From assembly GCF_029502005.1 (NCBI RefSeq), contig NZ_JAMQOT010000003.1, forward strand, positions 357,571 to 421,570: a DNA stretch of 64,000 nt. The letters are read 5' to 3'. The notes under the pieces are model-generated. The model worked only from the letters and a program-made list of their open reading frames with translations, did no database searches and was not told the origin of the DNA. Shown piece after piece: positions 26,746 through 29,581 of this stretch. The number at the start of each line of letters is the position of its first letter. The stretch's first letter is position 1. The position numbers and the translations under genes are program-made. The stretch is from Natrinema salsiterrestre. GTDB taxonomy: Archaea; Halobacteriota; Halobacteria; Halobacteriales; Natrialbaceae.

Positions 26746-27216
26746 TCAGTCGACCGATTCGAACCCCCACGCCTCGAGTCGGTCGACGACTTCGTCGACG
26801 TTGTGCATCGCCGCTTCGTAGGCTGCCTCCCGGACGTCGGTCTTCGACACGTCGGTTCCGAGTTCGTCACCCACTGCATCGACGAACTCGTCCTCCGCTT
26901 CGAGCACGAAATCCCGGAGATAGAACTGGACCATTTCGCGGTCCTGTTTGACGGTATCTCGGACGTAGACCCACGGAACGCCGCTATCGGTAGCGCCGTC
27001 CTGTGGCGGCTCCCCGACGATCGCCTCGGCCGACTGCTCTTCACTGTTAGCGGTTTGACCACCGTCGTCGGCAGTCTCCCCTCGAGTCGTTCCGTCCTCG
27101 GTATCAGAGCGAGGCGGCTCAGTATCCGATCCGTCGCCGGACTGAGACGCTTCGTCCGCGTCATCGGCCTCGTCTCGTGCATCCGCGAACGGATCGCTAC
27201 CGGATCCCTTCTTCAT
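26746..27216 (-). CDS. ParA-associated small acidic protein (putative partition partner)
   Basis: A 156-residue protein starting at an ATG that overlaps the parA stop by 4 bp (ATGA at 27213-27216), so the two are translationally coupled. Residues 1-80 are a disordered, highly acidic Ser/Asp/Glu region. Residues 85-156 look helical and contain QDREMVQFYLRDFVLEAEDE and VSKTDVREAAYEAAMHNVD. No ParB-type helix-turn-helix is obvious. By position it should be the adaptor or centromere-binding partner. The frame ends just before the decayed region. Confidence 0.8.
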   Translation of the reverse strand: MKKGSGSDPFADARDEADDADEASQSGDGSDTEPPRSDTEDGTTRGETADDGGQTANSEEQSAEAIVGEPPQDGATDSGVPWVYVRDTVKQDREMVQFYLRDFVLEAEDEFVDAVGDELGTDVSKTDVREAAYEAAMHNVDEVVDRLEAWGFESVD

Positions 27217-28055
27217 TGCTCACTCACCTCCTCGATTTCGGTCGCCAGCCGGTCGATTTTGTCGAGGGTTTCGCTCTCGTGATCGCGTCGTCGGTCGCGG
27301 TGTTCCTCGACGTAGTATCGCGGTGTACACTGCTGATCCCAGCAGCCCTCGAAGAGCGATGATCGCTCGCGGATCGCGACCGGCGCGGGATAGCCCCGAT
27401 CGCGAATTTCGGTCAGATATCTGTCCTGGTCGGACGTCCTACCGATACCGTTCGGAACGGCCGAGAGGACACCGATTTCGGCCTCCAGTCGCTCCTGAAG
27501 CCCGTCGACCAGCTCCTCCAACCCGAGAACGCTTTGCATTCCCTTGCCGGTCGGCTCGACCGGGATCACCAGACTTCGGGTGGCCGAGACGGCGTTGTAG
27601 AGATGCGGGCCCGCCGTCGCCGGCGGATCGACGACGAGGACGTCGTACTCCTGTGGGACGCCGGACTCGAGGAGCACCTGCCGGAGGCGGTCGTACGGGT
27701 CGAAGTCGTCACCCTCGCCGAGATCGTCGGCCATCTGCTGTGCGCGATTGAGGAGGTCTTCGAGGCTCTCGAGCATGTTGTGACTGGGGATGAGGTCGAA
27801 GCCGTACTCCGTTTCGTAAATGAGATCCTCGAGTGACCCTTTCGGTCGATCGATCAGGTGGCGAACGATGTTATCCGCTTGACTGTCGTCACGGGGTGCA
27901 TCGATATCGAGGAGGTAGGTGAGCGACCCGTTCTGTTGGTCCATATCGATCGCGAGAACGTCGAGCCCGTGGTTCGAGTGGGACTCGAGCAACGCCGCGC
28001 CGATCGTCGACTTGCCGACGCCGCCGGCCTCCGAGTACGTCGTGTACGTGAGCAT
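27213..28055 (-). CDS. parA: ParA-type partition ATPase
   Basis: A 280-residue MinD/ParA-family ATPase. The P-loop reads SEAGGVGKSTIGAALL. It lacks the signature Lys of the deviant Walker A (KGGxGKT), here an Ala, while the catalytic Lys and Ser/Thr are kept. Walker A' is LDVLAIDMDQQNGSLTYLL and Walker B is VLVVDPPATAG. Leaderless start at 28055: a TATA element (AATATAATA, 28077-28085) lies 22-30 nt upstream. Partner gene overlaps downstream. The 13-bp iterons upstream make this a typical type Ib-like partition system of a haloarchaeal replicon. Confidence 0.93.
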   Translation of the reverse strand: MLTYTTYSEAGGVGKSTIGAALLESHSNHGLDVLAIDMDQQNGSLTYLLDIDAPRDDSQADNIVRHLIDRPKGSLEDLIYETEYGFDLIPSHNMLESLEDLLNRAQQMADDLGEGDDFDPYDRLRQVLLESGVPQEYDVLVVDPPATAGPHLYNAVSATRSLVIPVEPTGKGMQSVLGLEELVDGLQERLEAEIGVLSAVPNGIGRTSDQDRYLTEIRDRGYPAPVAIRERSSLFEGCWDQQCTPRYYVEEHRDRRRDHESETLDKIDRLATEIEEVSEQ

Positions 28056-28064
28056 GCGTATGGG

Positions 28065-28085
28065 TTAGCCTTCCCGAATATAATA
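28065..28085 (-). promoter_or_regulatory. parA promoter with overlapping iteron operator
   Basis: The minus-strand TATA element at 28077-28085 is the only good promoter near the parA start. One iteron-like unit (TTAGCCTTCCCGA, 28065-28077) lies between it and the start codon, so a protein bound there would block transcription. It is in 13-bp register with the next unit at 28104 (39 bp on). This suggests self-regulation by the partition complex. Confidence 0.6.
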
Positions 28086-28683
28086 CTTCACCACACGTAT
28101 TGGGTAGGAAAATCAGTTAGCCTAACCGAATAGGCTAACCGCCTGCTTCGGTATTCGTGTCGCTGTGGGGGGTAAGCTGCTCGAGCACGGTTCTCACCTC
28201 GCATAGAGAAATAACGAGTCGAATAGGCTTTCTAGTTAGCCTAACTGAATAGTGTTAGTAGAAAACCGAACCTGTAGTTGGGAGACGGATCGGACTGGGA
28301 GGGCACGCGAGCAGTCGACGCGGATAGTTCGCTCACATCTTCGGACTATCTCAGCAGACTATTCGATCAGTTTGGCTGGGAAGTACAATTGGGTAGCTAT
28401 CTCACATGGCCTATTCGAACAGCCTAACTAAACGGCCTGATTAATAGGGCGGGGGCCGCGAGCTTTTGTTCCTCACACAAGTATGTCTACTAGAAGGTCT
28501 AATCGAGTAGACTAGCTACATAGACTAACTAAATGGGCTTCTTAGAATGATGGATCGGTAGTGTTGCGTACGAAATCACGTCAGAGAGCCGTTCGGATAC
28601 CTTCCCTTCGCCGACCAATACAGCGACGATGAACGGCTATTCGAATAGCCTAACCGAACAGCCTAACTACATAGACTAATCAC
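28065..28683. repeat. 13-bp iteron array (candidate centromere) of the partition locus
   Basis: Units of 13 bp with the consensus A-T/C-A-G-N-CTAA-C/T-C/T-N-A occur in clusters: 28065; 28104-28142; 28223-28261; 28341-28366; 28393-28444; 28481-28545; 28632-28683. About 22 units can be counted, some degenerate. The core is CTAAC. Examples are TTAGCCTAACCGA (28117-28129) and ACAGCCTAACTAA (28419-28431). Within a cluster the units are directly abutting, in the same orientation. A 9-bp inverted repeat (GTTAGCCTA/TAGGCTAAC, 28116-28139) also occurs. No open frame interrupts the array. It is probably the parS/centromere, or the origin iterons, of a once-independent replicon. Confidence 0.85.
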
Positions 28684-28861
28684 ACAGCTCGCACGGAACC
28701 ACGGAGTAGTTATGAGACCGATCGCACGCACACGCAGGCCGTCTACCCGAGGCATCATCTGCGTTCGAAAAGACGGAGCATCAGCTGGTAGTCTTACTAT
28801 CCGACCAGTTACGGTTCGTGACGATAGTGGTACAGAGGTAGTCCTCCATCCCAGTCACACC

Positions 28862-29581
28862 TCATTCATGAGCGTGGTCGTGCCGGTGGTCGTTCGCGTC
28901 GTGATGTCCGTGACCGACCGTCGGCGTGTCCAGTACGTCGTCGCACGCGACGTTCGTGTACCCCGAGTGGAAGAGCTCGACCGTCCCATCGTCGGCGTCG
29001 AACGCGTGCCGTTCGATGCAGCCGACGTCCGCTCCGAGCAGGTGGACGCTCACGCTGGGTTCGGCCGACGTCGTCTCCACCGAGTGAATGTCGTTGTTCG
29101 GCGGAATGAGTTCGTAATAATCGCCCCGTTCCATGCGATCCGTCCGAATCCGCTCCAGGTCCGCCTCGCCCTCGTCAGTGGTCCCGTCGTCGACGCGGCG
29201 ATAGAAATCTTCCCGCTGGGTCCCCCCGTAGATTCCGACGAGTCCCCACGCGAGATGATCGTGCACCGGCGTCGACGCGCCCGGGGGCAGGACGAGGGTG
29301 AACAACGACAGTTTGTTTCCCTCCCGGTACAACAGCCACTGCGCGATATCGTCGCCCATATTGCCGCTGTCCTCTTCGTCGTCGGCTGGAAGCCGTTGAT
29401 ACCGCTCGTCGAGCCAGTCATCGTCCGCCAGGAGCGCTTCGAAGGGTTCAGCCAGCGCCTCGAGCAGCGCCGGGATCTCGTCGTGTTCGTTCGCCGTTTC
29501 TTTGACCGTGTCGACGAAGTCGCGTACTCGGTCAGTGTCGTAGACGAACTCCGGTTCGGGATCCGCGTTTGGTGACGCCAT
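28862..29581 (-). CDS. Cysteine-dioxygenase-type cupin with His-rich tail
   Basis: A 239-residue cupin of the cysteine dioxygenase group. The metal motif PVHDHLAWGLVGIYGG has the HxH pair, and NDIHSVE supplies the third His. The enzyme probably oxidises a thiol (cysteine or a mercapto acid) with iron and O2. The C terminus has an unusual cluster (GHGHHDANDHRHDHAHE), possibly metal-storing. The start at 29581 follows a minus-strand TATA-like GATCTTATGCC near 29605-29615. Confidence 0.85.
   Translation of the reverse strand: MASPNADPEPEFVYDTDRVRDFVDTVKETANEHDEIPALLEALAEPFEALLADDDWLDERYQRLPADDEEDSGNMGDDIAQWLLYREGNKLSLFTLVLPPGASTPVHDHLAWGLVGIYGGTQREDFYRRVDDGTTDEGEADLERIRTDRMERGDYYELIPPNNDIHSVETTSAEPSVSVHLLGADVGCIERHAFDADDGTVELFHSGYTNVACDDVLDTPTVGHGHHDANDHRHDHAHE

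Follow-up and report, generated by a model that had tools for sequence, protein, structure and literature searches.

A 13-bp palindromic repeat array upstream of parA as a probable centromere-like site in the haloarchaeon Natrinema salsiterrestre

Several partition systems driven by a ParA-type ATPase bear comparison with the locus studied here. In SegAB of the Sulfolobales a 13-bp odd palindrome (TCTAGA-S-TCTAGA) lies upstream of the operon, with one copy immediately ahead of the segA start; two sites are found near the operon and further ones are scattered on the replicon, and SegB is a proven RHH protein (PMC12284271, PMC5120986). The delta-omega-parS system of pSM19035 (type Ib, with an RHH ParB) needs at least four contiguous repeats for full activity, and its omega protein acts on ParA through an N-terminal region with a key lysine (PMC9499535). 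Also described are the type Ib system ParF-ParG-parH of TP228 (PMC7308502) and the ParABS systems, with a CTPase/HTH ParB and a 16-bp parS. In the literature that we searched, from which subscription journals were mostly absent so that an earlier description is possible, we found no description of haloarchaeal plasmid partition sites.

The present locus lies in a stretch of 64,000 nucleotides of N. salsiterrestre DNA, analysed as a whole and called the window below. It consists of two genes and, directly upstream of the first of them, a non-coding, A/T-richer array of repeats spaced by 13 bp (28063-28681):

26746..27216, minus strand, partner gene, encoding a 156-aa protein that presumably binds the array
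27213..28055, minus strand, parA, encoding a 280-aa ATPase of the ParA/MinD type with the P-loop SEAGGVGKS and matches to AAA_31 and CbiA

The two genes form an operon in which the partner start is inside the parA stop (a 4-bp overlap). Two features of type I partition are thus present, namely repeated units in cis linked to parA and a P-loop ATPase of the ParA/MinD kind, whose Pfam matches (AAA_31, E = 4.6e-16; CbiA, E = 4.2e-9) both lie above the curated cut-offs. We consider it quite probable, on the evidence of sequence comparisons, that the array serves both as a centromere-like site (parS/parC) and as an operator, in a three-part module of parA, partner and array.

The locus resembles SegAB in the overlap between a ParA-type ATPase gene and the gene downstream of it, which encodes a small partner without similarity to bacterial ParB, in its 13-bp odd palindromes upstream of the operon (a likeness of length and symmetry, not of SegB sequence), in further sites elsewhere on the replicon and, for one haloarchaeal subfamily of partners (QHQ), in the repeat word aTCTwAGAt. 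It differs in that haloarchaeal loci have a multi-cluster tandem array at a 13-bp period where SegAB has two sites, are mainly plasmid-borne and have the word re-specified among subfamilies; moreover, profile searches of PDB sequences detected no relationship between the partner and SegB. With pSM19035 the locus shares a short ParA, a small partner, contiguous short repeats overlapping promoters and several parS sites per plasmid (PMC9499535), whereas the pSM19035 repeats are 7-bp non-palindromic heptads instead of 13-bp palindromes, and the haloarchaeal partner, for which no homology to omega could be detected, contains a long acidic linker. The short ParA, small partner and upstream centromere of ParF-ParG-parH are likewise matched, with no sequence relation detectable by family and PDB-sequence searches, an indirect comparison. 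Repeat sizes in TP228 differ from those of the haloarchaeal array. ParABS has the general plan of ParA, partner and centromere in common with the locus, but the haloarchaeal partner is without a ParB domain and the repeats form a tandem 13-bp lattice.

The best explanation of the locus is therefore a variant of ParA-driven partition, known in its general plan, with an array layout for which we found no published description. By analogy the system may work like SegAB and the ParG and omega systems, the likeness being one of layout with partner homology undetected; because the partner has neither detected homology nor a convincing fold match, we do not assign the locus to SegAB or to the RHH systems.

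The repeat array and the parA promoter

When the array flank (region 28056-28700) was compared by autocorrelation with dinucleotide shuffles, lag 13 gave z = 6.7 and lag 26 gave z = 3.9. Over the whole window, cut into 181 tiles of 700 bp, the lag-13 z had a mean of -0.79 (sd 1.35) and rose above 2 in three tiles only, all touching the array. The repeat unit proved palindromic, with the 13-bp sequence RGTTAGNCTAACY, of which CTAAC is one half, and a second dyad, CTATTCGAATAG, is formed where units abut. That is, the array is identical when read on either strand, and for the same reason a repeat finder reports direct and inverted repeats together. The original prediction had described a gene-free array of directly repeated CTAAC units, spaced exactly 13 bp apart and lying immediately upstream of parA; the spacing, the repetition and the absence of coding sequence throughout 28056-28700 are all borne out, while the units prove to be palindromes and not merely direct repeats.

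Sites were then scored with a matrix derived from ten other species only, at a cut-off of at least 7 bits. The array held 13 such sites, whereas 300 shuffles averaged 0.48 and never exceeded 3, and the remaining 63 kb of the window held another 13. A chance or low-complexity repeat without function is refuted by the excess of array sites over this expectation, together with the class-wide recurrence described below. Counting about six weak in-register units along with the 13 strong ones, we recognise six clear clusters of one to four units each (no strand; scores in bits), listed here with the promoter element:

28063..28088, cluster 1, one strong unit, GGTTAGCCTTCCC, at 28063-28075 and one weak unit; 12.3 and 4.1
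28077..28085, minus strand, TATA-like box TATTATATT, 22-30 bp before the parA start codon
28102..28140, cluster 2, strong units at 28115-28127 and 28128-28140 (17.8 and 15.5) and a weak one at 28102
28221..28246, cluster 3, two strong units; 11.1 and 17.9
28404..28442, cluster 4, three units, the top one at 28417; 6.1, 11.7 and 4.7
28492..28543, cluster 5, four units; 8.7, 9.7, 9.2 and 7.2
28643..28681, cluster 6, three strong units (15.5, 11.7 and 8.2) and a weak one at 28630

The earlier count of 22 units in seven clusters was thus somewhat high, the repeats themselves standing, and in place of the four to five units formerly ascribed to each of the two rightmost groups we count one to four in every cluster.

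Relative to the parA start, array unit 1 fills positions -8 to -20 and the TATA-like box positions -22 to -30, an arrangement kept in most close relatives. The box TATTATATT, itself kept in most Natrinema/Natrialba relatives, would act as a promoter element of parA, and its spacing fits a leaderless haloarchaeal mRNA. Leaderless transcription is common in haloarchaea. An autoregulatory operator is the natural reading, since a protein on unit 1 would block leaderless initiation; cluster 1, whose position between TATA box and start codon is kept in relatives, is a probable operator, and cluster 2 is in phase with it (52 bp = 4 x 13). The array could also be an operator and nothing else, autoregulating the parA-partner operon with the centromere elsewhere, and most close relatives do have a unit where a classical repressor would sit, with the TATA box on one side and the start codon on the other. 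An array of more than 600 bp in six clusters, however, goes far beyond the needs of a repressor, and unit pairs also occur far from the operon, on the same replicon only (see below), which makes an operator-only role very unlikely and favors a centromere-like site with an operator at its parA-proximal end.

Two observations concern the surroundings of the array. In many distant loci a conserved GTCTGAC motif precedes the TATA-like box, some 35-40 bp ahead of the parA start, and recurs across subfamilies with differing repeat words; it is possibly a BRE or an activator site. Adjoining the array is a minus-strand gene (28862-29581) with weak similarity of the cysteine dioxygenase type (CDO_I) and no evident link to partition.

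Conservation of the lattice and change of the repeat word

We assembled 131 parA loci from across the haloarchaeal class and scored 130 upstream regions at lags of 4-40. A homologous partner gene directly follows parA in 129 of the 131 loci, with an overlap of 4 bp in 109 and of 1 bp in 18. The strongest lag was 13, 26 or 39 in 104 of the 130 upstream regions (77, 9 and 18 regions, respectively), and when loci were thinned to below 80% ParA identity the same was true of 24 of 34, vs. 1 among 71 control segments drawn from these loci. The window's own unit was found upstream of parA relatives at 86-98% identity (Natrinema, Natrialba and Natronorubrum) and also at 70-74%; for most haloarchaeal relatives, at ParA identities as low as 38%, the upstream region has a 13-bp lattice with other unit sequences, and the signal is weak or absent in some loci (L099, L100, L112 and L118). 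The search for 13-bp repeats beside other haloarchaeal parA genes, suggested along with the original prediction, has in this way turned them up next to most relatives sampled, which supports the centromere for a ParA/partner pair proposed there. The gene pair with its DNA site was found in most haloarchaeal genera sampled, and 164 plasmid records in PLSDB encode the window's ParA family, the close relatives among those listed being haloarchaeal. A 13-bp lag upstream of an AGGVGK-type parA can serve as a rule for locating such sites, with repeat words predicted for several subfamilies.

When partners were grouped by residues 97, 99 and 101 of the segment MVQFYLR, which are the exposed positions of a putative strand, the groups had different palindromes:

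QYR-type partner, word rgTTAG.CTAacy
QHQ-type partner, word aTCTwAGAt
TFH-type partner, word tGtTtsaAaCa
EHR-type partner, word tcTGTwACAga
PFR-type partner, word cTAta...taTAg
QFR- and THT-type partners, word ytAgt...acTar

The 13-bp period and the dyad symmetry thus stay constant while the word differs by partner subfamily. In a comparison of locus pairs, which are non-independent and share ancestry, repeat similarity for loci sharing the three partner residues vs. those not sharing them was 3.0 vs. 0.7 at 35-50% ParA identity, 2.1 vs. 0.6 at 50-60% and 5.6 vs. 1.7 at 60-75%. These values support the notion that the partner subfamily would set the repeat word. In a ranking of alignment columns K90, W150, M95 and T126 predicted the word better than Q97 and R101, so that the putative strand was not singled out, and because several columns outside it ranked as high we claim no residue-level code.

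Three further parA-partner loci occur in the window's genome: L004 (G000:C1:110441-111235), L003 (G000:C27) and L002 (G000:C6). The 13-bp lattices of L003 and L004 differ in their words, and that of L002 is weak only. The differing words of the window locus (L001), L003 and L004 within a single genome fit separate, non-interfering systems for separate replicons. A corollary would be a kind of incompatibility group, in which plasmids with a common word should interfere.

The ParA ATPase and the partner protein

A survey of P-loops showed that the signature lysine of the deviant Walker A motif (KGGxxK[ST]) is absent in 128 of the 131 ParAs, which have AGGVGK[ST] or an SGG-type loop; a lysine-bearing P-loop was seen in only two of the 131, both distant paralogues. 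With the signature lysine missing, this ParA is an atypical type I partition ATPase, and because AGGVGK replaces KGGVGK its ATP-dependent dimer chemistry may be unusual.

The partner is laid out as an N-terminal MKKGSGSDPF motif, an acidic linker (35% D/E) and a conserved C-terminal domain with the invariant residues R86, R93, D127, E130 and G151; an N-terminal peptide of the form M(..)K-x-G-[STA] is present in 128 of 129 partners. Searches of Pfam, PHROG and PDB sequences gave no family match and NCBIfam none of note. Neither Pfam nor NCBIfam matched a ParB CTPase or HTH domain to the partner, profile searches of PDB sequences returned neither SegB nor any other RHH protein, and scans of IMG/VR with four partner subfamilies found no relatives. 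An RHH-like pattern can be discerned, with alternating buried and exposed residues at 96-101 followed by a helix and then SKTDVREAA. Proline stands at position 97 in 35 of 109 sequences, and an hhalign comparison with haloarchaeal RHH_1 proteins gave a probability of 1.9, no better than with ParA. An AlphaFold model of the full-length partner was unusable (pLDDT 50); that of the C-terminal domain (pLDDT 79, built from 13 close relatives only) is helical in the RHH-like segment. Foldseek found no convincing structural match to the C-terminal model (best E = 1.8) and no RHH match, and a match to the histone fold of CENP-S/MHF1 was rejected, its best VIA-align Z of 4.4 being below the level that the tool regards as meaningful.

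Binding of the array by the partner is suggested by their linkage and co-variation, which shared ancestry could partly produce. Alternatively, the array might be bound by ParA or by an unlinked host protein, with the partner otherwise employed. The ParA of type Ia systems, which binds its own operator, provides a precedent, and neither hhalign nor structural comparison confirmed a DNA-binding fold in the partner. Nonetheless the window ParA is a short form, with its ATPase motif at residue 7 and without the N-terminal helix-turn-helix extension, and a host factor would not explain the differing words at L001, L003 and L004 of one genome. We regard binding by ParA or a host protein as highly improbable and take the partner to be the putative array-binding protein.

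Replicon context and proposed mode of action

Whole genomes (n = 14) were searched for satellites of the array, defined as two abutting units with three or fewer mismatches. Matches to the tandem pair were almost solely on the parA-bearing contig, with one exception seen in the many-contig draft G076. In seven complete genomes (G046, G053, G055, G056, G072, G077 and G078) all 12 of the 12 off-array pairs were on the plasmid with the par locus, a replicon that accounts for 9-30% of the respective genome; the probability of such a result under random placement is about 1e-11 by hand calculation. The reversed control pattern also matched 0-2 times per genome, and a few of the weakest satellite pairs may thus be due to chance. 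The pairs occur dispersed along the replicon, and most of them fall between long reading frames. The window genome has a perfect pair at C21:438417-438442 (L136 1488-1513), 52 kb from the array, and the sister genome G069 (L175) has one at C1:1214483, about 52 kb from its array.

Such a distribution bears on the replication iterons that had been named as the alternative to a centromere, that is, repeats binding an initiator (Rep or Orc1/Cdc6) at an origin beside parA. Iterons are likewise tandem repeats near par genes, and Natrinema versiforme (G077) has Orc genes at a distance of 6-17 kb from parA. Yet an initiator is not consistently near: the closest Orc1/Cdc6 gene on the 500-kb contig is about 268 kb off here, in agreement with the earlier remark that none is nearby, and the distance is about 146 kb in G053. 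Also arguing against iterons, the 13-bp lattice tracks the parA-partner pair across the class, its word shifts with the partner subfamily, and the satellite pairs are spread along the replicon, for the most part outside long reading frames. We therefore disfavor the iteron alternative as very unlikely and retain the centromere-like site.

The locus of the sister genome G069 (ParA identity 98%, colinear over the window stretch compared, G069:C1:1257161-1275086) is on the main chromosome, judging from its 4.19-Mb contig, which bears all three 16S rRNA genes found; it is probably on the main chromosome in the window genome too. In other Natrinema the locus is on plasmids of 167-1617 kb, and some window neighbour genes match plasmid DNA of G053. 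With a chromosomal locus in G069, plasmid-borne ones in other Natrinema and plasmid-like neighbours, the window probably contains the partition locus of a megaplasmid that was integrated and kept, and with the locus now probably chromosomal the present role of this copy could differ.

We infer the following mode of action. Each 13-bp palindrome would be occupied by a dimer of the partner, with the conserved C-terminal domain making the DNA contact, as linkage, symmetry and co-variation suggest. Dimers would line up on contiguous units, each turned by about 86 degrees from the next about the helix axis, and so build a partition complex; here the contiguity of the units and the pSM19035 precedent are our guides. 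By analogy with pSM19035, the N-terminal K-x-G-S/A peptide on its flexible acidic linker may contact DNA-bound ParA-ATP and lead to ATP hydrolysis, upon which the complex would be pulled over the nucleoid and the copies separated, in keeping with the plasmid context. Partner bound at the unit closest to parA would, given the location of that unit between the TATA box and the start codon, repress the operon, and the satellite tandem pairs on the same replicon may be secondary binding sites.

Tentatively, and as a possibility that we ourselves doubt, one may go further and see in these loci an undescribed haloarchaeal partition class: a new non-RHH, non-HTH partner would read a fixed-period, re-codable 13-bp lattice, keeping the several megaplasmids of a cell from interfering with one another, in company with a lysine-less ParA and replicon-wide satellites. 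The partition module would supply stabilisation modules for haloarchaeal vectors and would give a euryarchaeal comparison for SegAB.

In both the window genome and G069 the satellite pair adjoins a gene for an archaea-specific SMC-related protein (ASRP, NF045487), and a link between the centromere protein and an SMC-like protein is possible.
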